Of a DNA stretch of 50,182 nt, positions 18,626-33,201 are shown in pieces. A model generated the notes under the pieces. That model did not search any database and had not been told where the DNA came from. It worked only from the letters and a program-made list of their open reading frames with translations. Source of the DNA: a virus; IMG/VR virus record IMGVR_UViG_3300028908_000002, positions 1-50,182 of that record. One strand, 5' to 3'. Position 1 is the first letter of the stretch; each line of letters opens with the position of its first letter. The position numbers were made by a program, and so were the translations under genes.

Positions 18626-19822
18626 TTACCCCCTCTTACCTATGAAGTACTCAAAATGGATAAGTCCAAAGTTGTACCCTGTAATTTTAGTACTGTAATC
18701 TGTGTTATGCTCTCTGTACACTGCAGGTGCTACGTTAAAAAAGCCCCTTAGGAAGCTCTCGCTGAATTCTCCTGCATCGTATGTCTCGTATCTGTACTCT
18801 GGAGTCGGCCCAGATGCCATACGAAGCGCTGACTGTCCAACAATTACGCCTCTACCTACGAGGTCATTCGATACGCTAAAGCCTTGCTCACCACTCATTT
18901 TACCATCTTTATTAAATAATCGCCATCCAGGGAGCATTACACCTGTACCTCCGAGATGTCTGTTCAATGTTGTACCATGAAATGTTGGAACTGCTACGAA
19001 GTCTAAGTTACCAAATGTGCCAAGATAACCTCTGATAGCCATATTTCTCTCACCTCTCACATCATACTGTGCGAGGTCTCTGAAATCGGTTGACTCTCTC
19101 AACAATCTAAAGAATGTGCTATCTACAAATACAGTGTATCTACCTGAACTGTTAGACGGCACAAGTGGCAATCTATTACCGCCATTAGTAAAGCCCCATC
19201 CCTCTGATGCTGCTTCTTCCAACTTTCTCACAAACTTGAGTGTAGGTGTATCAGTTGATGTAAGAGCAGCCATAGTGGTCTTACCGTTAGGTCTAATGAT
19301 GTGTGACGGTGCACAGTGTGTCATTGTGCCCTGTAATGCGTCAGCCATTGACTGATGTACCCATCTTGCATTTAAGTTAGCCAACTGCCCCATAGCGTAG
19401 CTGTGCTTTGTGTTGTTCACTTTGTCATATGCAGAGCCTTCAACAGCCCAACCGTTATCTCTGACAAATCTGTAAAAGTGCATTGTCAACTCATCGCTGA
19501 AGTACTTTTGTACCTCGCCCTTTCCCTCAGCTCTTGACTTACCCATGATAGGTGGGTTAACCAAGAAACCATCATAATCAAATGTTATAGCTTGTTTAGC
19601 GTTCTGCGCTGTTCTCGTACTTCTGTATATTACAGATGAAGCACTGTTGCCTATATATGCGTTGAACAAGTTTGTTCTCTGCATTGCGACAATTAGCTTC
19701 TGTTTAATCCACTGCTTACGCGTCAACGGATCGTTCAAGTCAAGTTGTGCTGTGGTGTTCTGCGACGCATTTGGTGGAACAAAGCCTTGACTCGCAGACG
19801 CTGGTGTTACTACTGTTGCCAT
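18626..19822 (-). CDS. Major capsid protein, N4-gp56-like family, 398 aa
   Basis: The layout follows the N4 gp56/DUF4043 capsid family: an early WIKQKLIVAMQRTNLF helix, AITFDYDGFLVNPPIMGKSR, the E-loop/spine equivalent YFSDELTMHFYRFVRDNGWA, then a long helix MGQLANLNARWVHQSMADAL. The mid-domain contains GRYTVFVDSTFFRLL and GYLGTFGNLDFVAVPTFHG. Length is typical. Preceded by a scaffold-like gene, as expected. It would form the icosahedral shell. Confidence 0.75.
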   Translation of the reverse strand: MATVVTPASASQGFVPPNASQNTTAQLDLNDPLTRKQWIKQKLIVAMQRTNLFNAYIGNSASSVIYRSTRTAQNAKQAITFDYDGFLVNPPIMGKSRAEGKGEVQKYFSDELTMHFYRFVRDNGWAVEGSAYDKVNNTKHSYAMGQLANLNARWVHQSMADALQGTMTHCAPSHIIRPNGKTTMAALTSTDTPTLKFVRKLEEAASEGWGFTNGGNRLPLVPSNSSGRYTVFVDSTFFRLLRESTDFRDLAQYDVRGERNMAIRGYLGTFGNLDFVAVPTFHGTTLNRHLGGTGVMLPGWRLFNKDGKMSGEQGFSVSNDLVGRGVIVGQSALRMASGPTPEYRYETYDAGEFSESFLRGFFNVAPAVYREHNTDYSTKITGYNFGLIHFEYFIGKRG

Positions 19823-20329: not shown

Positions 20330-20480
20330 AGTAATCCTTTATTTATGTTATCGTTATGCTTACACTCACATATAGCATAAGGCTAACATACGAGGAGGCG
20401 ACACTGCCCTGCCAAACAGTGCCACCTGCGGAGTGTACTATAACTACCTACTTAGGTGGAAAAATCTTTGTAGGCGGGTG

Positions 20481-20694: not shown

Positions 20695-20723
20695 GAGCTA
20701 AAATTTTGATGAAAGGAATGAAA

Positions 20724-21122
20724 ATGTCATTTAAACCAGTAAAAGTTGAGCGATACGCACTCAAGGGATGGGCTAAACATCCTCGCACAGAGGAGATAGT
20801 ACAATTAGAGCGTACAGTGGCAGCACTAACCCCACCTGCCACACTTAAGAAGATGAATGCTGTAAATGCGCATAGCGCAAAGCCTATCAAACCACCTGCT
20901 GATCGTGCAGCAAACTTAGAGGCGCAGATTGACGCATATCTGCATACTGCAATAGACAAAATAGGTGTGCGTGTAGGAGAAGAAATCCCTCCTGCTGAAC
21001 TACAAAGACTCGTATCAGCACTCACACAGGTACAGGGTGCGCTGTTGAAGAAGGGTGGTACTGATGTGGACTTGTCAGCTACACGCTTAGACCACTTCAG
21101 GAGCTTACTTCGGAAATGTTAA
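20724..21122 (+). CDS. Putative terminase small subunit, 132 aa
   Basis: Basic N-terminus (VKVERYALKGWAKHPRTEEI) and helical C-terminus (ELQRLVSALTQVQGALLKKG). Position immediately upstream of the large terminase gene, size and charge fit a DNA-binding small terminase subunit, but no motif proves it. ATG 20724 is chosen because AAAGGA is seven bases upstream; in-frame ATGs at 20709 and 20718 are on the ribosome site. Confidence 0.5.
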   Translation: MSFKPVKVERYALKGWAKHPRTEEIVQLERTVAALTPPATLKKMNAVNAHSAKPIKPPADRAANLEAQIDAYLHTAIDKIGVRVGEEIPPAELQRLVSALTQVQGALLKKGGTDVDLSATRLDHFRSLLRKC

Positions 21123-21138: not shown

Positions 21139-22845
21139 GTGGACAGGGCTACGCTTAAAGCGTTGTTTCCATTAGCTGACTTGGACATATTCTACAGAGA
21201 GCCTTCATCTGATGTAGAATTAGCTGAACGCTACTTGCCTAACAAACTGTGGCGTATGAATGTGTTGTATAAGATTAAGAATAAGTCGGGACGAGTTGTG
21301 CGCTTTGTTCTTAACGATGCACAGTTAAAGGTGTATAAGGAGTTGTTATCGCACCCTCGTTTGATTATATTGAAGAGTAGGCAGCGTGGTATATCCACAT
21401 TCATGCTGATATGCTACTTTGACGATGCACTAATTGAGGGTGTCATTGAAGCGGGTATGATGGCACAAGGTGAGAAGGAAATGGAGAACTTGTTTGACAA
21501 GGTTAAGCTGTTATGGCGTGAGCTTGATGACAGTGTGCTCCGCTTCTTATCCTTGCACACTGTCAAGGACACTACAAAAGCCTTTGAGTGGAATAACTTG
21601 AGTAAAATGTACTTACAGTTGTCCTTTAGATCGGGTACACTACAACGCTTCCATGTATCGGAGTATGCAAAGATAAGTAAAAGGTACCCCGAAAGGGCTA
21701 AGGAGACACGATCTGGTAGCTTACAAGCCATTCTACCTACAAAGGACAACTTAGTTGTAATTGAAAGTACGGCAGAGGGTGATAATGACTTCAAGCGTAT
21801 GTGGGATGGAGCGTGTGAGCTTGATGATAAAGAGAGGTCATATAATGACTTTAAACCAGTGTTTCTGTCGTGGTTGGACGATCCTGACTGTGTACTTAGT
21901 GTACCACAGCGTGATACACCTATCAGTGAAGCCTACTTCAAGCGTATGGCTGAACGATTAAAAGCCTTATTCAATTTGGGTGATAGGTTCGCTAAACAGT
22001 TGTGCGATGCGTCGGGTAATGTCAAGGTGCTTGATGTTCAACGCTGGTGGTGGATTGCCAAGTTGCGTGAGATGGACAATGACATGGAGTTAATGTTGAG
22101 GGAGTATCCTGCATATCCAGAGGAAGCCTTCTATTTGAGTATAGAGGGTGTGTGGTATAAGGACTTGTACGAGTATCTGTACAGTAACAATAGGTTCTCG
22201 CTTGACTTTGAGCTTATGTACGATGATACTATGCCCGTTGCTGTGGCATTTGACTTAGGCGTAGACGATAACACAGTGTTGTTGTATAGTCAATATACGG
22301 ACTTTCGTATTAACATGTTAGACATATCAATAGACTCAGGGCGTGATATAGTTAGCTATTGCAAGGAGATAAAAGGTAAAGCCTTAATAGAGGGGTGGAC
22401 GATTGGGTTACTTATACTTCCACACGATGCACGGAACAGGCACATCTCTTCAAATAAGACTGTGTATGACATAGTAGTTGAACACTTCCCTGACGCTATT
22501 GTCCATGTAGTTGAGAGGGCTGGTGTTTTAGCTGATCAAATTAAAGAGGTGCGTCGAGTTGGTAAATCCTTCTATTTGAGTGAGCGGTGTGATGTTGTTA
22601 AAGGCATGTTTCAAAACTACCGTATGAAGGTTGACGCTAACGGTATGCCTACGGGCAAAGATGTACACGATGAATGGTCTCATATAGCTGATGCAGTTAG
22701 ATACCTATCTCAAGTGGTTGATAGTGGCTATTATGCTTCCGTAGCCACAACTCTACATAGTTTGAGGGTGGCGGCTATGATGTCTCATTACAGTATAGAC
22801 GAGGAGCGTGAGTACGACACTATATATGATGGCTTATCTCTTTAA
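21139..22845 (+). CDS. terL: Terminase large subunit, 568 aa
   Basis: The ATPase-nuclease motor that packages DNA. Visible motifs: adenine-binding/Walker A region LKSRQRGISTF (about 79-89), Walker B with catalytic Glu in LVVIESTAEGD (about 205-215), nuclease motif I AFDLGVDDNT (about 370), and the C-terminal acidic motif HDEWSHIADAVRYL (about 511-524). The GTG at 21139 is the only reasonable start: the frame is open only from 21091 and has no ATG upstream. No good ribosome site is present, so translation is probably coupled to the upstream gene 16 bases away. The gene includes an exact AGTGTACCACAG (21898-21909), a 12-mer otherwise seen in the adjacent non-coding region. Confidence 0.85.
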   Translation: MDRATLKALFPLADLDIFYREPSSDVELAERYLPNKLWRMNVLYKIKNKSGRVVRFVLNDAQLKVYKELLSHPRLIILKSRQRGISTFMLICYFDDALIEGVIEAGMMAQGEKEMENLFDKVKLLWRELDDSVLRFLSLHTVKDTTKAFEWNNLSKMYLQLSFRSGTLQRFHVSEYAKISKRYPERAKETRSGSLQAILPTKDNLVVIESTAEGDNDFKRMWDGACELDDKERSYNDFKPVFLSWLDDPDCVLSVPQRDTPISEAYFKRMAERLKALFNLGDRFAKQLCDASGNVKVLDVQRWWWIAKLREMDNDMELMLREYPAYPEEAFYLSIEGVWYKDLYEYLYSNNRFSLDFELMYDDTMPVAVAFDLGVDDNTVLLYSQYTDFRINMLDISIDSGRDIVSYCKEIKGKALIEGWTIGLLILPHDARNRHISSNKTVYDIVVEHFPDAIVHVVERAGVLADQIKEVRRVGKSFYLSERCDVVKGMFQNYRMKVDANGMPTGKDVHDEWSHIADAVRYLSQVVDSGYYASVATTLHSLRVAAMMSHYSIDEEREYDTIYDGLSL

Positions 22846-22915
22846 GCTTCTATTGTAGTGTGGTACGCTCACATGAAACACTGAACATGCTCCTGCTACG
22901 CAGTCGCTGATTATG

Positions 22916-22954
22916 TTGTGTAGAAGCAGTTACTCCGTAACTACTCCTACACAA
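22916..22954. repeat. Module hairpin 1, copy A
   Basis: Outer arms TTGTGTAG and CTACACAA enclose an inner stem AGTTAC/GTAACT with a TCC loop. Confidence 0.8.
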
Positions 22955-23068
22955 TGAAAACTTAAGCTTTGCTTAACTACAAACGCTACACTACTAAAAA
23001 TTTAAGCTTCAGTTAAGAATTAATCTAACCTTAACAAAAACGCTCCTGCTACGCAGTCGCTAATTAAG

Positions 23069-23109
23069 TTGTGTAGAACACTCCTGCTACGCAGAAGTGT
23101 ACTACACAA
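23069..23109. repeat. Module hairpin 1, copy B (inner stem replaced)
   Basis: The outer arms TTGTGTAG/CTACACAA are kept, but the inner stem is ACACT/AGTGT with CCTGCTACGCAG, itself a copy of the module's leading mini-hairpin, in the loop. Confidence 0.75.
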
Positions 23110-23201
23110 TAAAAACTTAAATCTGCCTTACATAAAGGCTTTCTCTTTCTAAAATTTAAGCTTAATTTAAGTTTTAATCAAATCTTAAACCAATCTTAAA
23201 T

Positions 23202-23243
23202 CGTATTTTACCTCTTAACCTAATCGTTAAGAGGTAAAATACG
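23202..23243. repeat. Perfect palindrome P1, 18-bp arms, 6-base loop
   Basis: Arm CGTATTTTACCTCTTAAC (23202-23219), loop CTAATC, perfect complementary arm 23226-23243. No T-run follows on either strand, so it is not a typical intrinsic terminator. Immediately followed by GAGTGTACCACAG. Confidence 0.9.
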
Positions 23244-23396
23244 GAGTGTACCACAGAACTTATACATTCAACATTACATCGTATGCTATGTAAACTTATT
23301 TCAAACTTAATTATTTTAACAATGAAAAGCCTCTTCGTGGGCGCAAAGCGTTACACACTCACAGTAAACGCTCCTGCTACGCAGTCGCTGATTATG

Positions 23397-23435
23397 TTGT
23401 GTATAAGCAGTTACTTCGTAACTACTCATACACAA
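23397..23435. repeat. Module hairpin 1, copy C
   Basis: Arms TTGTGTAT and ATACACAA: the G-C closing pair of copies A and B has become T-A on both sides. Inner stem AGTTAC/GTAACT with a TTC loop. Confidence 0.8.
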
Positions 23436-23523
23436 TGAAAACTTAATCTAACCTTAACCCATTCTACACCTAAAAATTTAAGCTTCAGTTAAGAATTAAT
23501 CTAACCTTAAACCGATCTTAAAC

Positions 23524-23565
23524 CGTATTTTACCCCTTAACTTAAGGGTTAAGGGGTAAAATACG
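23524..23565. repeat. Perfect palindrome P2, 18-bp arms
   Basis: Arm CGTATTTTACCCCTTAAC, loop TTAAGG, perfect complement 23548-23565. Compared with P1, one T-A pair in the stem is changed to C-G on both arms. Confidence 0.9.
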
Positions 23566-23645
23566 GAGTGTACCACAGCACTTACACACTAAATATTGCA
23601 TTGTATGCTATGTTAAACGCTCCTGCTTCGCAGTCGCTGATTAAG

Positions 23646-23684
23646 TTGTGTATGAGTAGTTACTTCGTAACTACTCGTACACAA
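23646..23684. repeat. Module hairpin 1, copy D (longest stem)
   Basis: An almost continuous 18-bp stem. TTGTGTA pairs with TACACAA, a T/G wobble follows, then GAGTAGTTAC pairs with GTAACTACTC around a TTC loop. Confidence 0.8.
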
Positions 23685-23772
23685 GGAAAACTAAAATTAA
23701 CCTTAACCCATTCTGCTCCCAAAAATTTAAGCTTAATTTAAGCTTTAATCAAACCTTAAACCAATCTTAAAT

Positions 23773-23814
23773 CGTATTTTACCCCTTAACCTAATCGTTA
23801 AGGGGTAAAATACG
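23773..23814. repeat. Perfect palindrome P3, 18-bp arms
   Basis: Arms as in P2 (CCCC/GGGG version) but with the CTAATC loop of P1. Followed by GAGTGTACCACAG. Confidence 0.9.
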
Positions 23815-24467
23815 GAGTGTACCACAGCACTTACACACTAAATATTGCATTGTACAACATGTAAACTAAAATTAACCTTAAGCGTTTTAGAGCTAAAAGC
23901 CTTCAGTGGGTGGTGTTAGGGCGCGAACCCCTACCCTCCTTTGCCCCACCCCCTCCCCCTCACTCCTCACGCTCCACTCTTCGCACACAATACATTAGTC
24001 CGTTGCACACACGCCATTTTCAGCCGTTGCACATCGTCGCACATGACAGGAACACGGAGTAAAGAGACGCTTTAACCATCGCACATACAGCTAAAACGAG
24101 CATATTACATCATGTTATGTTAACACGGTGTGCGGGATTTTAAGCGATTTTATAGCCTTACCCTTAAAATGACCCATTTTTTACCAGTTTTTCGCTCTCC
24201 GTTCGATTTAGAGCCATTTTTGAGCGAAATTTTTAGATTTTTGGAGTGAAAAAGTGAAATAGGTGGCAATCAAAACCAAATAAAATTAAAAATATTTAAT
24301 AATTAAAGATATTTAACTTTTACAGTGCGCATTGTAAAATAAAGCCTCGTTTATGTTTAGTGATGTGGTGTCAGGGTGTCAAAATTCGAGTGTGCCACAG
24401 ACGGAAATTGCAGGGAGTGGAGTTTTAACGGAACTCCAAAAGTGAAAAAAATCCCAATTTTGGTACG

Positions 24468-24877
24468 GTAACTTTTACGGGTAATTTTTTATCGGGGAAA
24501 TTGTTACTCGTTTAAAAGCCTAAATTTAGGTATTATCTTATATAGTAACAATTTAACTTTAATATTTAGCATATATATATAAAAGGAAAAATATTGGTTT
24601 AAGGAAATTTTAAGTTTAAGGAAAATTTAAGTTTTAAAATTTAAGCTTTTTCCGTTTAAGTTTTATTATTATTATTATTATTATTGAAAAAAAAAGTTTG
24701 AAAAATTACTTGCTAAAAAGTTACCCGACCAAAAATTTTAAGCCCTAAATCCAGGGTTTCGGAGCGTAACAGGTAACTTTTAACCAAAAATAAAAAGTTA
24801 CGGCACCAAACCTTAAACAGTTACCGCCCCTCAAAAGCCCCAAATTTCGGGCGGTAACAAATTAAGCGTTTTGTTAC
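24468..24877. repeat. Cluster of GTTAC/GTAAC sites
   Basis: Ten copies of the pentamer in either orientation at 24468, 24503, 24545, 24720, 24766, 24773, 24797, 24820, 24854 and 24873. Two of them form a perfect 10-bp inverted repeat, GTTACCGCCC (24820-24829) with GGGCGGTAAC (24849-24858). Confidence 0.65.
24663..24683. repeat. (TTA)7 microsatellite
   Basis: Seven TTA units followed by an A9 run nearby, inside the most A+T-rich part of the gene-free region; could ease strand opening. Confidence 0.8.
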
Positions 24878-25011
24878 CCACCCCGAAACTTAAACGGCTT
24901 CACTGCTAAAGCAAACTCGATGCTCCGAGTGTACCACACAAATATTTTACACCCGTAAGCCCAATCGACTCAAGCGTATATAAGATGACAGACCACAAAG
25001 AAAGGCTTTTA

Positions 25012-25176
25012 ACACGGTGTACAAAGTGATTTTTCGTTTAAGGTTTCTCCGTGTCATGCCGTTTTGAAGGGGGGTAAAATCGATACACAAAGCCAAAACA
25101 GATGTATTGTACATAAAGCGCAGGAATACACAAAGCCCTTTACCCTACTGTATCGAAGGATTTACACGGTGTACAA
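25012..25176. repeat. Direct repeat of ACACGGTGTACAA, two copies
   Basis: Exact copies at 25012-25024 and 25164-25176. A third, partial copy (ACACGGTGTGC) is at about 24123. Each contains the small palindrome ACAC-G-GTGT. Confidence 0.6.
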
Positions 25177-25183
25177 TGCTTGT

Positions 25184-25287
25184 TTACCCTTATATACCAC
25201 AATTCTAAGCATATAATGCCGTGTTCACCCTTACATACTACAATTTTTACACTGTACGATGTCCGTTTACCCTTACATACTACAATC
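25184..25287. repeat. Three iteron-like repeats at 41-42 bp spacing (candidate origin)
   Basis: Core pattern TT(A/C)ACCCTTA(T/C)ATAC(C/T)ACAAT; the nine-base TYACCCTTA starts at 25184, 25225 and 25267. Spacing close to four helical turns puts all three on one DNA face. Replication-initiator binding is an inference. Confidence 0.6.
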
Positions 25288-25614
25288 AAAAGAGCATACC
25301 ACAGTTAAAATTTTGTACCACACAAATAAACCACCCAAAAACGCCAAATTTTTAACGCCAAAATTTAAAATGCACTCCAAGCACATGACATCCCACACTC
25401 ATAAGTAAACTTAATTTTACCTTGTCAAGCCAAATTGCGACATTGATTTGTATTCCTACAACGCTACATTTTAAACTAAAATTTAAGCCCATTTTATATA
25501 TTATATGTTTATACAATGCACCTTAAACACATGACATCACACAAAAATTGACAGAAAACGCAAACTTTTTAGAAAGAAGGCTTTTATTTAAGCGTGTATT
25601 AAGGTTAATTGTAC

Positions 25615-25620
25615 TACAAT
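25615..25620 (+). promoter_or_regulatory. Candidate early promoter -10 (TACAAT)
   Basis: TACAAT preceded by ATTT, GTATT and TTAATT tracts about 11 bp apart; lies about 50 bases before the first early start. Another TACAAT is at 25512. Confidence 0.35.
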
Positions 25621-25670
25621 ACACTTATCGGTTAAGCAGACAACCGAAACCAAATAGAAAAGGATGCAGA

Positions 25671-26219
25671 ATGCAAGAGTTGAGAGAAATCGTTAAACTA
25701 TGCAAAGGGGTGGGAGTTGAACTACCCAAAGTTAGACAAGGTAAATTAAGCGGCGGCTTTGTCATCGAAAATGTTTTCGTGCAAGATGTCATAGGCGTTC
25801 AAGATGTGATGATCGCCATTTTGGCCGAGAGGTTAAAACACAAATATAATATCAGTTGGACTTTGAAGCCGTCAAACGAAATCACTGATCCAAATTTTCT
25901 TGAAGAAGGCTTATTGTCATTCACGCTACCAAGCGGCGATCACAAGACACTTGAATATGCCGTTGTCGAATGGTCAGACACACAAGATGTGTTGTCAAGC
26001 TATTGGTCAAAGGGCGGAGTTAACTCCGCTGACCCCGATTTTGTCGGGGATCAATGGGATACGCTAATTGAAGTGATATGGCAGTGTTTCAATAGCTGCC
26101 GCCCATATTTGTACGATTTAATACTTGATGAGCTTCATAGGGCGCGTAACTATGAGGTATGTAAGAAGTATAGCGCTTTGAATAATCTTGACAACGATAC
26201 AGTAGAAGAGGAGATTTAA
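25671..26219 (+). CDS. Unrecognised early protein, 182 aa
   Basis: No family recognised. Mixed alpha/beta soluble protein with no signal peptide; notable stretches are SGGFVIENVFVQDVIGVQDV and WDTLIEVIWQCFNSCRPYLY. ATG 25671 follows AAAAGGATGCAGA; the frame opens at a TTG at 25548 but that extension lacks a ribosome site and overlaps likely promoter DNA. First gene after the gene-free region, so probably early and involved in host takeover or replication start. Confidence 0.6.
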   Translation: MQELREIVKLCKGVGVELPKVRQGKLSGGFVIENVFVQDVIGVQDVMIAILAERLKHKYNISWTLKPSNEITDPNFLEEGLLSFTLPSGDHKTLEYAVVEWSDTQDVLSSYWSKGGVNSADPDFVGDQWDTLIEVIWQCFNSCRPYLYDLILDELHRARNYEVCKKYSALNNLDNDTVEEEI

Positions 26220-27156: not shown

Positions 27157-27177
27157 GAGGCTTTTTAGGGTACTATT

Positions 27178-27233
27178 ATATAGGAAGGGTTACAGAGTAA
27201 CCGTTTCTATATGGCTATACTACTTTGTAGTAT
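27178..27233 (+). other. Two consecutive hairpins between early genes
   Basis: A 16-base-arm hairpin (27178-27193 with 27197-27212, two mismatches, core GGTTAC-AGA-GTAACC) is followed by ATACTAC-TTT-GTAGTAT (27217-27233). Likely transcript-processing or attenuation structures. Confidence 0.55.
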
Positions 27234-27291
27234 GGCTACTTTGTAGTATTCTTTAAAGGTCTTAGACCTAATTTTAAACAAAGGATCGACT

Positions 27292-27523
27292 ATGAATGAG
27301 AAAAGTAAAGAGCGATATAAAAAGCTTGAAATTCTAATGCAATGTCGATCTATTCCAGAGCTGTGATAGAGAGGCTTTATATATACAAAAAAGCTTTACT
27401 AAAGCTTTTGCAGTAGAGGGGCAACCCATTACTATAAGAAAGAGTCTTAAAGAGGCGGAGATCGAAAAGGTTAAAAGCCTGATAAATAAAGAGAGAAGGG
27501 ATTTAGCATGTACATTCCAATAG
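27292..27523 (+). pseudogene. Small early gene apparently split by a frameshift
   Basis: ATG 27292 after ACAAAGGATCGACT gives a 24-residue peptide (MNEKSKERYKKLEILMQCRS...) that stops at 27366. The +1 frame is open from 27338 to 27523, with protein-like helical content (KSLKEAEIEKVKSLINKERR). A +1 shift near 27338 would fuse them into a protein of about 75 residues whose end overlaps the next start by 16 bases. Options are decay, a base-call error or programmed shifting; there is no obvious slippery run at the junction. Confidence 0.4.
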
Positions 27524-27741
27524 GTATACTAATTTTGTTGTTACTTTTTATACCCGGATTTTTTGAGTTGGCATTGCTATTGGCAGGTTTAGCCGTAGTA
27601 GGCGCTATTGTAGTAGCGATCGGTGGAACTGTTTTAGGTTTCATCGTTAGCTATGGGATAGTTAAAGTAGTGGCGGTCATCGCCGTTGTAGGTACATTTA
27701 TATATGTATCTGTAACAGACTTAAAATCCCCGCCTACTTAA
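27508..27741 (+). CDS. Small hydrophobic membrane protein, 77 aa
   Basis: Nearly all hydrophobic, with about three transmembrane segments (residues 3-20, 21-48, 50-68) and a short polar tail. An early-expressed inner-membrane protein of unknown role; superinfection exclusion or host-envelope modification are possibilities only. Its stop codon lies in the loop of a hairpin (27719-27754). Confidence 0.55.
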   Translation: MYIPIGILILLLLFIPGFFELALLLAGLAVVGAIVVAIGGTVLGFIVSYGIVKVVAVIAVVGTFIYVSVTDLKSPPT

Positions 27742-27754
27742 GGGGATTTTAAGT
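27719..27754. terminator. Hairpin at the end of the membrane protein gene
   Basis: Arms ACTTAAAATCCCC and GGGGATTTTAAGT (13 bp, perfect), loop of ten including the stop codon. The T-rich ends would work as a terminator in either direction. Confidence 0.55.
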
Positions 27755-27756
27755 TA

Positions 27757-27762
27757 TATAAT
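27757..27762 (+). promoter_or_regulatory. TATAAT box upstream of the 250-aa protein
   Basis: TATAAT directly after the preceding terminator hairpin, 95 bases before the next gene; transcription would start in front of the leader hairpin at 27784. Confidence 0.5.
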
Positions 27763-27783
27763 GGTACAATACACACATTGAAG

Positions 27784-27828
27784 CCTTTAAAGAGTGTCAT
27801 AGTCTGTAACACTCTTTAAAGGTTTTAT
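27784..27828 (+). terminator. Leader hairpin with T-run (terminator/attenuator)
   Basis: CCTTTAAAGAGTGT and ACACTCTTTAAAGG form a perfect 14-bp stem with an 11-base loop, followed by TTTTAT. It sits between a TATAAT box and the gene, so it may attenuate that transcript. Confidence 0.6.
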
Positions 27829-27857
27829 ACCTAAAATTTTACAAAAAGGATTTTATT

Positions 27858-28610
27858 ATGAACGGATTTCAAGGTTTTAACGGATTTGGAGCGCCACAAC
27901 CAACAATGGCGACAGAGACTCAACCTATGCCAATGCCAATGGATCAACCAATGGCGACAGAAACTCAACCAGCGCCGATGACAACAACTACAACAGGAAC
28001 AGAGAGTAAAAGAGCTAAAAGGTTGTCAAAAACTGCAATATGGAAGTTAATCAGTGAAACACAAAGTTATCAGAATGGATCAATTCCGGCTGATGTTCTG
28101 GCTGTCCTAAAAGCTCATATCGAACCGAAGTCAGGAGGATTTGAGAAGACGGAGATCGATCCTAATCACTTTGTGTGGGATTTGAACGGTGCGGAGATCG
28201 CAAGAGTCGATCACATTTTGGGAGTCTTTTTCCTAAGTTCTGATTTTAGTAAGGGCATGACCCGCACTAAGACCACTCATAATTACATCTCTCAATTTGT
28301 AAAAGAGAGGGATACAGAGCTTAGGAATAAGCAAATGGAGTTAGTAGCCGCTACATCGGAGGCTCTAAACCGCCAAGATATTCAAACGGCTATGAACTTA
28401 CAAAATGAGATCCAGAGTCTCATAGAGGAATTAAACGCACCGTCTAAAGTGAAAAGAGAGAGAGCGACAGAGGTTTTAACCGAAAAAGCAAAAAGCGGAG
28501 TACTTGCAACAGAAGCCCCGCAACTATATACCAATAGTTTAGGGGTAAATAAGCAAGAAGTTATCACAAGACTCCAAGAGGCGGGTTACACTCCCGATCC
28601 CTCTAAGTAG
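27858..28610 (+). CDS. Unrecognised early protein with Met/Pro/Thr-rich N-terminus, 250 aa
   Basis: Residues 1-55 are low complexity with two copies of PMATETQP. Residues 60-170 look folded (AIWKLISETQSYQNGSIPAD, FEKTEIDPNHFVWDLNG), and the rest is helical. ACAAAAAGGATTTTATT precedes the start. The N-terminal composition resembles that of the protein at 32359, hinting at a related role in replication or nucleoprotein assembly; not proven. Confidence 0.6.
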   Translation: MNGFQGFNGFGAPQPTMATETQPMPMPMDQPMATETQPAPMTTTTTGTESKRAKRLSKTAIWKLISETQSYQNGSIPADVLAVLKAHIEPKSGGFEKTEIDPNHFVWDLNGAEIARVDHILGVFFLSSDFSKGMTRTKTTHNYISQFVKERDTELRNKQMELVAATSEALNRQDIQTAMNLQNEIQSLIEELNAPSKVKRERATEVLTEKAKSGVLATEAPQLYTNSLGVNKQEVITRLQEAGYTPDPSK

Positions 28611-29383: not shown

Positions 29384-29418
29384 GTACGATAGCGGCTTAT
29401 TTAACCGCTTTATCGTAC
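29384..29418. terminator. Terminator-like hairpin at the end of the primase-helicase gene
   Basis: GTACGATAGCGG (29384-29395) pairs with CCGCTTTATCGTAC (29405-29418) with a two-base bulge. On the minus strand it is followed, after about ten bases, by CTCTCTTTTATATT, so it probably ends minus-strand transcription. Confidence 0.6.
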
Positions 29419-32096
29419 ATTTCAAGGCATTGTGTGAGACATCCGATCAAAGTCTTGTGCATATTTAGCTTTGTAGCCCGATCTATTGCATCGACTAAAT
29501 GTTTCCTATCTCTTATGATCAGCGTGGACGGTATCCGTCGGACTACTCCGTCCACTTTGTACAGTGTAACAGGCACGGGGATAAGCCCGTATTTAACAGC
29601 CCTCGTCTTGCTTGATAGCGTGTCGATCACATCTCCGACCGCTATATTCTCATCTAAAGCCTCTTTAAATAAGGCTTTTAACTTTCTCCTACTACACAAA
29701 TTCACACCGGCGGCATCTAATATGGTACGCAACTCCGTCCACTCTCTCCATTTCCAAGTGTGAGTAGTCTGATCCATGTTCAATTTCTTCATGATCCAGT
29801 CTGCCACATGATCCACATCGTCTGCAAGGTCTGCCCTCTCAATCTCTTCAAGCTCTGCCACTTGCTGTGGCGTAACCACTTTGGAGGCGTACTTCTGCAT
29901 GTTATTGTCTGCCCACTTAGAAGCCTCGACGGGGTTTAATTTAGCCCACTTAAGAATGTTAACGATGTAAGTTCCGATAGCGTGTGTAACAACCTTCATA
30001 ACGGTAGCCGTGTCATACTTCTCTATCAAGCCCGTCTCATTGAAGGGATTTATACCACTGCTATCAAATAGCATTATTCTACTCTGCATCTGCGGTTCAA
30101 GGCTATCATACAGAGACGTAGCGTTAGCACCGAACAATATAAATGCACCGGTACGCAATGATACAGTGCCTTTATGCTTAGGGCTTATGTCTGTATGTGT
30201 ACCTTGAAAGGCTGCCTTTAAAGCGTTCAAGGCTTGACCTTGACCCTTGAAGCTATGGGACGAAATCTCATCGAACATGAGACAAAGCCTTGACACTACA
30301 TCCCTATAATCTACTGCCGACCTTGTGTCTTTAACGAGTTCCGTTAAGTCTATGCCCTTCTTATTGGTAAGGTTAAGCGTACGAAACACATTTATCAATG
30401 CTGACTTACCCGCACCCGATGGCGCTTCTACTAACAAGGCTTTAGGTCTGTTGAATGGTGTGAGCCACATCGTTAAACTAAACTCTGCAATCAACAATGG
30501 TAAGTCTTTCCAGTGTTTCATATAGGTCTGTACAATGTCATCGTACGCCTCTTTTGTTACACCGGTCAAATCCTTAATCATACGCAAATCAAAGGCTTGA
30601 CGCACATTAACCACCGTCTTACCCTGCTCGGATACACTGAACATAGTTGTATCACGGGGAGCTAAGAGGGCTAACTCTATTTCCTCGTCTGCAATGACGG
30701 CAACACTATTGGATGCTATCACTTTTAATATAGTGTCTGTCAGCGTGATCTGATCCAACAACTGAGGCTTTTCACCCTCTTCCGTTGATCGTAGGACTTT
30801 CTTATTGTAGTCCTTGATCATCTTTGCCATGTCAGGCTTGAAGAGGAAGCGGCGCCAATACTTGTACATATAAAGCTCAAGTGTACCGTCTTGCACACGA
30901 ACCCTATTTGCACCCGTAAGTGTGCCATCGTATCTCAGACCTCTTAAGTATATGTTACCCCTACTATCCACTTGTGTAGCGAGGATTAACCACAGTAGCG
31001 TATTGTAGTCTATGTATTGCATAAACGACACGGGGTGAGGGTACAGCTTATCCACCCTTAAACAGATCAGATGTACCACTTCAGCGAGGAGTTTCTCCCC
31101 GTGTTCACGATACATGTCTTGCAAAGCCTCTAACGGTGGTGGTAAGGCTATACGATGACCTGCATCTCCAAACTGTGTTACGCAAGTATTACCACCACAA
31201 TAGTAGCGCAACAAGCCATCGCCTTGTTTGACTACCCAAGCGTAGCGGGGATTGTTAGGATCGCTGTGCTTATCTGCATTGTGCAAACATCGCACATTGA
31301 CTTTCGAGGTAGGCTCTACACCGTTTATAGCTGGTGTGAGCCACCTATCTAAATCCCCTATTAGCATAGTCTTGCCTACTAAGTGGTTGAGGGATTGATC
31401 ATCTACCGCTGTTATTGTTACTTCTGTATCACACCTTACTTCCGGTGTATCAGCGTGTGATACTAAAGCCTCCTTAAACTCCTTCTGCTCCGTTTTATTG
31501 TAGTGTTCTGCTACGAGTGTAGCCCCGTATTGCACATAATACACCTGATCCTTCATGCCTAAGAAAGAGGCTTTCTCTTTATTGTACGCTTCAAGATCAC
31601 CTGTTACCAATGTAGGGGCAAACAAGCGTGTTACATCTTTGCATGACTCATCAGCTGTCAATCCGAATTCAGCGTTTATGCTTGACCATACAGTCTTGTA
31701 ATTATGTACTGTTAAGCCTACTATAGGTAACACAAGTCTGACTCTTATGTCAGATGTTCTGCCGTAATTCTGTGTGGGGATTAAGACATAGCTGTATCCT
31801 TGTAACGCTTCAGCTATGTTATTCAAGCGATCGATAGTGGCAGTGTCGATATCAAAGGCGATCATATTGCCTACACCTATGAGGTGCTTCTTGTGCCTAT
31901 GACCTCTATCGTATATGCCCATTGATGAAGCGTACCACAACATATGCTGTGCCACCTCTTCTAATGTCGGTAAGGATAGTTGTGTGAAGCCGAAGGTTGT
32001 AGCTTTACCGTAGTCGAGCTTTTGATCCTCCGTTAGTAGTGTGTCGGGTTTAGCGTGTTTAAGTTGCATACTACAACTTATAGTATAATTGTTCAT
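29397..32096 (-). CDS. Primase-helicase (AEP-type primase plus SF3-like helicase), 899 aa
   Basis: Probable replicative initiator. N-terminal archaeo-eukaryotic primase signals: MIAFDID (about 76-82), RVRLVLPI, and DESCKDVTRLFAPTLV. A zinc-binding element (CLHNADKHSD ... YYCGGNTC) spans residues 267-304. The C-terminal ATPase has Walker A EAPSGAGKSAL (about 556), Walker B LCLMFDEIS (about 604) and sensor AFILFGANATS (about 650). It is alone on the minus strand within a plus-strand block, with its own promoter. TTTATAGAAT and AAGGTGGAA precede ATG 32096. Domain roles are from motif recognition. Confidence 0.75.
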   Translation of the reverse strand: MNNYTISCSMQLKHAKPDTLLTEDQKLDYGKATTFGFTQLSLPTLEEVAQHMLWYASSMGIYDRGHRHKKHLIGVGNMIAFDIDTATIDRLNNIAEALQGYSYVLIPTQNYGRTSDIRVRLVLPIVGLTVHNYKTVWSSINAEFGLTADESCKDVTRLFAPTLVTGDLEAYNKEKASFLGMKDQVYYVQYGATLVAEHYNKTEQKEFKEALVSHADTPEVRCDTEVTITAVDDQSLNHLVGKTMLIGDLDRWLTPAINGVEPTSKVNVRCLHNADKHSDPNNPRYAWVVKQGDGLLRYYCGGNTCVTQFGDAGHRIALPPPLEALQDMYREHGEKLLAEVVHLICLRVDKLYPHPVSFMQYIDYNTLLWLILATQVDSRGNIYLRGLRYDGTLTGANRVRVQDGTLELYMYKYWRRFLFKPDMAKMIKDYNKKVLRSTEEGEKPQLLDQITLTDTILKVIASNSVAVIADEEIELALLAPRDTTMFSVSEQGKTVVNVRQAFDLRMIKDLTGVTKEAYDDIVQTYMKHWKDLPLLIAEFSLTMWLTPFNRPKALLVEAPSGAGKSALINVFRTLNLTNKKGIDLTELVKDTRSAVDYRDVVSRLCLMFDEISSHSFKGQGQALNALKAAFQGTHTDISPKHKGTVSLRTGAFILFGANATSLYDSLEPQMQSRIMLFDSSGINPFNETGLIEKYDTATVMKVVTHAIGTYIVNILKWAKLNPVEASKWADNNMQKYASKVVTPQQVAELEEIERADLADDVDHVADWIMKKLNMDQTTHTWKWREWTELRTILDAAGVNLCSRRKLKALFKEALDENIAVGDVIDTLSSKTRAVKYGLIPVPVTLYKVDGVVRRIPSTLIIRDRKHLVDAIDRATKLNMHKTLIGCLTQCLEMYDKAVK

Positions 32097-32358: not shown

Positions 32359-33201
32359 ATGACACAGACTATGCCACAGGGCGGTATGCCACAAGGTATG
32401 CCACAAGGCAATATCCCACAGGCAGCATGGCAACCACCTGCCGCAGCATGGGGTAAGCCTATACAGGATACATCAGCTGGTACACTGTTCCCTAAACTAC
32501 CGGACGGTACAGATTTGAAGAGTTGGGGTAATGCCCCTATTGGGTTTATACAAGGCTTTGTACCGATTAAGGTTATACAGATGCACGGTACAAACGGTGC
32601 ATTTACAAGAATAGCCGGTTTCGGTTTCAATTACTATTGTGCGTCAGAGGCTGATATAGTCAATAGCATTGAATGGGGGTCAGTCGATACGCCTACCACT
32701 GTAGCCAGTGCGTGGGACGAGGGTAATATAAATCCCCTTGATGTAGTTGGCATCGTTAAGATCGCCTCTAAAGGTGATCCGAAACCCGACGGTGGCAGAT
32801 ACTCCTATCACCATGTAAGCGTAGGCATGGGTGATTGGGGTGAGCATACTGCACAGGTAAAGGAGATAGTGTTGAGAGAGGTAAACGCTAAGATGAAGGC
32901 TTTAGGTATGACAGTACCGCCTAAAGTTTATGCAGGTGATAGAACAGGTATGCCGATGACACAGATAGGTGGTACACAAGCACCTGCACATACTAATACA
33001 CAGGCTATGCCAACAGGTAATGCACAACCTGCACAAGCACCTACGGGTAACGCACAAGCACCTATGGGCAATGCACAAGCACCTATGGGCAATGCACCTG
33101 CACAAGCACCTGCACAAGCACCTACGGGCAATGCACCTGCAGGTAATACCCCTGCACCAACAGGCGGATTTCCCACATTCGGTGGCGGTTTCCCACAATA
33201 A
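32359..33201 (+). CDS. Proline/alanine-rich protein, possible ssDNA-binding protein, 280 aa
   Basis: ATG 32359 follows ACAAAAGGATCGAAT. N-terminal repeats of MPQG (residues 5-25), a folded core of about 150 residues (WGNAPIGFIQGFVPIKVIQM, GGRYSYHHVSVGMGDWGEHT), then a 90-residue Ala/Pro/Gly/Asn tail with GNAQAP repeats ending FPTFGGGFPQ. Position directly before the DNA polymerase and the disordered tail suggest a DNA-binding protein. The usual acidic SSB tip is missing, so this is tentative. Confidence 0.4.
   Translation: MTQTMPQGGMPQGMPQGNIPQAAWQPPAAAWGKPIQDTSAGTLFPKLPDGTDLKSWGNAPIGFIQGFVPIKVIQMHGTNGAFTRIAGFGFNYYCASEADIVNSIEWGSVDTPTTVASAWDEGNINPLDVVGIVKIASKGDPKPDGGRYSYHHVSVGMGDWGEHTAQVKEIVLREVNAKMKALGMTVPPKVYAGDRTGMPMTQIGGTQAPAHTNTQAMPTGNAQPAQAPTGNAQAPMGNAQAPMGNAPAQAPAQAPTGNAPAGNTPAPTGGFPTFGGGFPQ

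Follow-up and report, generated by a model that had tools for sequence, protein, structure and literature searches.

A tandem array of non-coding modules carrying long hairpins was identified between the TerL gene and the early genes in the window, i.e., the whole 50,182-nucleotide stretch of viral DNA analysed here. Many related phages have unrelated tandem repeats at this position, and some have perfect hairpins there; the locus therefore resembles a rapidly evolving region of DNA-level control more than a new RNA. We tentatively interpret the array as part of a cis-acting DNA control region, which may act as a replication origin and/or a packaging (concatemer-processing) junction. A DNA-level region was preferred over the rival explanations because folding is strong on both strands, the wobble pairs are split between strands, and convincing covariance copies are lacking. 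Replication or packaging proteins would bind the hairpins and repeated boxes (such as GAGTGTACCACA), or extrude them, at the DNA level, and the array would expand, contract and convert through recombination. The arms would stay perfect partly via template-switch repair, and perhaps partly via selection on the fold. A specific interval where repeats and perfect hairpins concentrate is thus flagged in a phage group with cultured members, and mapping the origin and the DNA ends in any one of these cultured phages would account for the region throughout the group.

Table 1. Features in and around the gap downstream of TerL, with positions in the window.
Feature	Positions	Strand	Remarks
Major capsid protein (MCP)	18626-19822	leftward	among structural genes
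Likely TerS	20706-21122	+	by position only
TerL	21139-22845	+	upstream border of gap
Non-coding gap, TerL to first early gene	22846-25671		no ORF of at least 60 aa up to 25547
Module M0	22879-23034	+	5' block, hairpin B0, TTAAG segment; no palindrome
Hairpin B0	22916-22954		triloop, in M0
Module M1	23035-23364	+	hairpin B1 and palindrome P1
Hairpin B1	23069-23109		inner arms replaced, still largely paired, in M1
Palindrome P1	23202-23243		18-bp perfect arms; T-A at arm position 12 (23213/23232)
CGGAGTGTACCACAG box by P1	23242-23256	+	also by P2 (23564-23578) and P3 (23813-23827)
Module M2	23365-23613	+	hairpin B2 and palindrome P2
Hairpin B2	23397-23435		in M2
Palindrome P2	23523-23566		19-bp perfect arms (18-bp core 23524-23565); loop TTAAGG
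Module M3	23614-23880	+	hairpin B3 and palindrome P3
Hairpin B3	23646-23684		in M3
Palindrome P3	23773-23814		18-bp perfect arms; C-G at arm position 12

Genes in the window are ordered as structural genes (minus strand), TerS-TerL (plus strand), the gap and early genes (plus strand). The phage encodes its own replication proteins: a PolA-type polymerase, a helicase, a ligase and a primase-like/DUF5906 protein. The last 127 bases of the record are identical to its first 127, indicating a circular assembly of about 50,055 bp; this overlap looks like an assembly k-mer and is located away from the gap. The first early gene likely starts with the ATG at 25672, and its protein start, MQELRE, matches MRELRE, the N-terminal start of the homologous protein in the related locus L007. 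GC skew follows gene orientation, with negative skew at the minus-strand gene at 29.4-32.1 kb, and its minimum near 20-25 kb was therefore rejected as independent evidence of an origin.

The array was originally predicted to consist of tandem non-coding modules with three perfect-arm palindromes at 23202, 23524 and 23773. Both points hold: M1-M3 carry the palindromes (M0 is a partial module), no ORF of at least 60 amino acids occurs between 22846 and 25547, and the arms of P2 are one base longer than predicted. All three palindromes have a 6-nt loop, CTAATC in P1 and P3 and TTAAGG in P2. The one compensated pair that had been described was found at arm position 12 (T/A in P1, C/G in P2 and P3), and a 19th pair further out is C-G in P2, where P1 and P3 have T.G. 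P1-P3 are the only perfect hairpins in the window with arms of at least 15 bp (loop 3-24), the next-longest one having 14 bp (27784-27822), with the caveat that the three copies come from duplication and hence are not independent. Three near-identical 26-codon minus-strand ORFs span the palindromes; we dismissed them as genes, since the copies hardly differ in DNA sequence and the differences that exist alter the encoded residues.

Segment by segment, the modules are best described as recombinant mosaics. M0 is identical to M2 over 41/41 positions of the TTAAG segment, where M1 is nearest to M3 (0.90), and in the linker and post segments M2 is nearest to M3. M0 probably lost its palindrome by deletion between TTAA(A)C repeats. 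M1 and M3 differ at 2/36 positions in the palindrome arms, 16/37 in the linker and 2/51 in the TTAAG segment. Between modules, the palindrome arms and the adjoining 14-nt GGAGTGTACCACAG box vary less than the linker and post segments.

A second hairpin family, missing from the original prediction, is present in all four modules. This hairpin B is a triloop stem of 18-19 pairs. Its four copies show both-sided changes at 6 pairs, and 91.8% of cells pair versus 82.1% in shuffled controls; these changes lie mostly in one copy, as a block, and therefore may represent a single event. The inner arm of hairpin B in M1 resembles the neighbouring CTCCTGCTACGCAG element. Read on the minus strand, the A.C mismatches of B0, B1 and B2 would become G.U pairs.

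The compensated pair in the palindromes had been taken to imply selection for the fold. This is not established, since only one such pair exists and 162 of 500 shuffles contain one as well. Because the modules are mosaic, P2 and P3 may share their C-G pair by conversion. Template switching during replication introduces paired substitutions in one event, and is reported both to create and to maintain perfect stems (PMC8794818). As conversion and template switching yield the same pattern, one compensated pair among tandem copies should not be taken as evidence of a functional fold. Uncompensated arm changes in relatives had been named as an observation that would speak against selection; such changes are common (e.g., in L043 and L067), but the hairpins concerned are not homologous to those in the window. 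A role for the hairpins themselves retains some support from the covariation of hairpin B at 6 pairs and from the concentration of perfect hairpins at this locus in relatives, although selection is not established.

These observations also bear on the possibility, which we regard as real but rather unlikely, that the array is a mutational by-product. The locus would then be a recombination and template-switch hot spot in unconstrained non-coding DNA, with arm copied from arm and a functionless fold. The mosaic modules, the single compensated pair, the template-switch mechanism, the uncompensated hairpin copies in relatives and the turnover of repeat copy number in Kafunavirus are all consistent with this. 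So is the P2 loop: together with its next base it reads TTAAGGG, which reverse-complements exactly to the CCCTTAA of the P2 left arm, a match that a templated copy would produce; TTAAGGG also repeats the right arm directly, and slippage is a possible alternative. Against a by-product stand the lower variation of the arms and the 14-nt box relative to the linker and post segments (although M1 and M3 agree closely in the TTAAG segment as well), and the occurrence of such arrays at one genomic location across many phages, which suggests more than random drift.

The relatives provide the evidence for this shared location. By TerL protein, the relatives of the window include L007 (47% identical), PH1, VPMS1, Amaethon and Kafunavirus KF-1/IW-1/ETP-1/ZHX, and a profile search with TerL retrieved 80 IMG/VR loci. 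Among the relatives whose annotation covers the TerL region, the gene layout of the window is shared by PH1, VPMS1, ZHX/ETP-1 and MW202744. Tandem repeats follow TerL in 12 of 13 individually examined loci, which represent about ten independent lineages as some are near-duplicates. The exception is ZHX, whose record stops before the array position, and in L022 the repeats after TerL are not enriched compared with the rest of the locus. Tandem repeats cover 12.2% of the post-TerL gaps versus 0.74% of the upstream sequence (51.6 and 377 kb, respectively), and the density of perfect hairpins (at least 12 bp) is 0.42 per kb in the gaps versus 0.026 upstream, this upstream control being mostly coding DNA. 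In shuffled gaps the hairpin density is 0.009 per kb, which excludes a chance origin of the palindromes in the window. Thirteen loci have such hairpins in the gap, and some tandem repeat is present in 35 of 55 gaps of at least 300 bp (counted from rows) and absent from the other 20.

Repeat units and hairpin sequences are lineage-specific. Kafunavirus KF-1/IW-1, PH1, Amaethon and VPMS1 have their own tandem arrays in the same interval, and no DNA similarity to that of the window was found; the KF-1/IW-1 array sits between early ORFs, and the perfect hairpins in this interval are shorter in these annotated relatives than in the window. The near-identical Kafunavirus genomes KF-1, IW-1 and ETP-1 differ in the copy number of a 71-83 bp unit. 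It is conceivable, but we consider it doubtful, that these arrays form a class of cis-elements in this phage group, in which position and architecture (tandem repeats and long perfect hairpins) are conserved and sequence is not. Such elements would initiate replication or process concatemers, and templated copying within each lineage would keep their arms perfect. Eight of 26 near-full contigs (those behind L036, L040, L044, L065, L068, L076, L100 and L101) end within 2 kb after TerL. This clustering was rejected as proof of a terminus; several of the ends coincide with exact k-mer overlaps or fall within repeats, and assembly may explain it.

The hairpins might alternatively act as structured RNA, either within the 3' portion of the terminase transcript or as a separate non-coding RNA, with a role in stability, processing or attenuation; we judge this improbable. 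M3 folds far better than its shuffles on both strands (z -8.87 and -8.48), hairpin B covaries, and the outer pair of P1 and P3 would be U.G on the plus strand. However, the wobble evidence is split, since the palindromes favour the plus strand and the A.C mismatches of B0, B1 and B2 favour the minus strand, and the modules have neither a strong promoter consensus nor a T-tract. Nothing in Rfam 15 reached the gathering threshold, which bears out the earlier remark that no named element resembles the palindromes. The covariance-model search proposed as a check did not extend the family: models of both hairpins gave no convincing copy in 29 related records, and the sole R1 match outside the window, in the phage of L007, lies inside a coding ORF and was attributed to chance.

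Searches for the DNA sequence itself gave similar results. The exact palindrome pattern has no match in viral contigs or genome contigs, the box pattern has none in viral contigs, and a distant blastn search with the gap as query detected no DNA similarity in phages or plasmids. The MCP query in viral contigs and the TerL query in genome contigs retrieved no relatives. The module 5' block has one match in viral contigs (L013), which lies in coding sequence of a GC-rich contig and was discarded as unrelated.

We give little credence to a further explanation, in which the palindrome and the GAGTGTACCACA box form a putative duplex operator or dimer-binding site for a phage regulator. The CGGAGTGTAC/GAGTGTACCACA word does recur at 20429, 23242, 23564, 23813, 24387 and 24925, always on the plus strand and in non-coding DNA; the site at 20429 is CGGAGTGTAC in the MCP/TerS intergenic region, and those at 20429, 24387 and 24925 are variants of the CGGAGTGTACCACAG box. 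Allowing at most one mismatch, CGGAGTGTACNNNA has 6 matches versus 0.73 expected, of which one (8515) is in an ORF and three are the module copies, the 24387 variant coming from the BLAST list. The usual repressor operators, however, are shorter than 18-19 bp arms around a 6-nt loop, the palindrome arm sequence is confined to the modules, and the likely early promoter is about 1.7 kb away. A dispersed repetitive palindrome of the REP/MITE type was rejected, as the palindrome occurs only in the array of the window and matches no viral or genome contig. An intrinsic transcription terminator (GC-rich stem plus T-run) was also rejected, in agreement with the original prediction, because no T-run follows P1-P3 and no terminator prediction falls on them.

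The preferred reading as a replication origin and/or packaging junction draws support from the gene layout common to the annotated relatives, the enrichment of tandem repeats and perfect hairpins in this interval, the copy-number differences in Kafunavirus, the parallel with T7 and the replication genes of the phage itself. The mostly coding nature of the upstream control and the 20 gaps devoid of tandem repeats count against it. This reading can be compared with known systems. In T7, the terminus lies between TerL and the early genes, and TerL and the early genes follow the structural genes on the same strand. The T7 layout resembles that of the window, with TerL followed by a 1,571-bp gap with short tandem repeats and then by early promoters and early genes; the array of the window likewise lies between TerL and the probable early promoter and early genes. 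Tandem repeats are present in the window as well. Unlike in T7, the structural genes of the window run on the other strand from TerL and the early genes. The T7 gap contains CCTAAAG arrays with a 13-bp period around the 160-bp terminal repeat, whereas the modules of the window are approximately 250-330 bp long. Moreover, the T7 gap has no perfect hairpin of at least 8 bp, showing that a junction of this kind can do without hairpins, whereas the window has two large hairpins per palindrome-bearing module. Iteron-type replication origins of phages and plasmids, e.g., P4 ori/crr, offer another comparison. The window resembles them in having AT-rich repeats and repeated boxes, and in that the phage carries replication genes of its own, but its repeat unit greatly exceeds an iteron in length.

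A stretch at about 25580-25676 is similar to L007 11422-11515, with conserved TATTTAAGCGT...CGGTTAAGCA...AAAAGGAT before the first early gene. It is probably the early promoter and leader, and it lies approximately 1.7 kb past the modules. This leader is conserved between the window and L007 but the modules are not, indicating that the array cannot simply be equated with the early promoter. Several early genes share a similar leader in the window (27157-27295 and 27720-27860) and in L007 (12680-12760 and 13200-13290), consisting of a variable hairpin, then AAAGGTCTTATGACCTAA and AAAGGAT, then ATG.

An AT-rich TTAATAAATTTATTAA-like motif is present in 46 of 76 gaps of the related loci (e.g., L014, L016, L017, L042, L063 and L095). 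It clusters in the first ~50 bp past the TerL stop, with a density of 7.1 per kb at 0-50 bp that drops to 0 at 2-3 kb. The motif was not found in L007 or in the window, where two 16-bp forms were searched with at most 3 mismatches, and its lack from the window counts against the preferred reading. The primase-like/DUF5906 protein (29397-32096, minus strand) sits amid plus-strand genes and has a match only in the phage of L007 among the 29 related records (32% identity). A link between this primase-like protein (P0003) and the missing AT motif was dropped, as many motif-less relatives also lack P0003.

Other repeats were also observed in the window. GGTAAC/GTTACC words recur in both orientations at 24400-24900, in the same gap as the modules, and the gap of L007 repeats TTTAGTCCC/GGGACTAAA in their place. 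A 41-bp tandem repeat of 2.5 copies (TTACCCTTACATACTACAATT...) is located at 25184-25286, near the early genes, and another tandem repeat, with units containing CACAAGCACC, is located at 33027-33141 in the 5' part of the PolA-type polymerase ORF.
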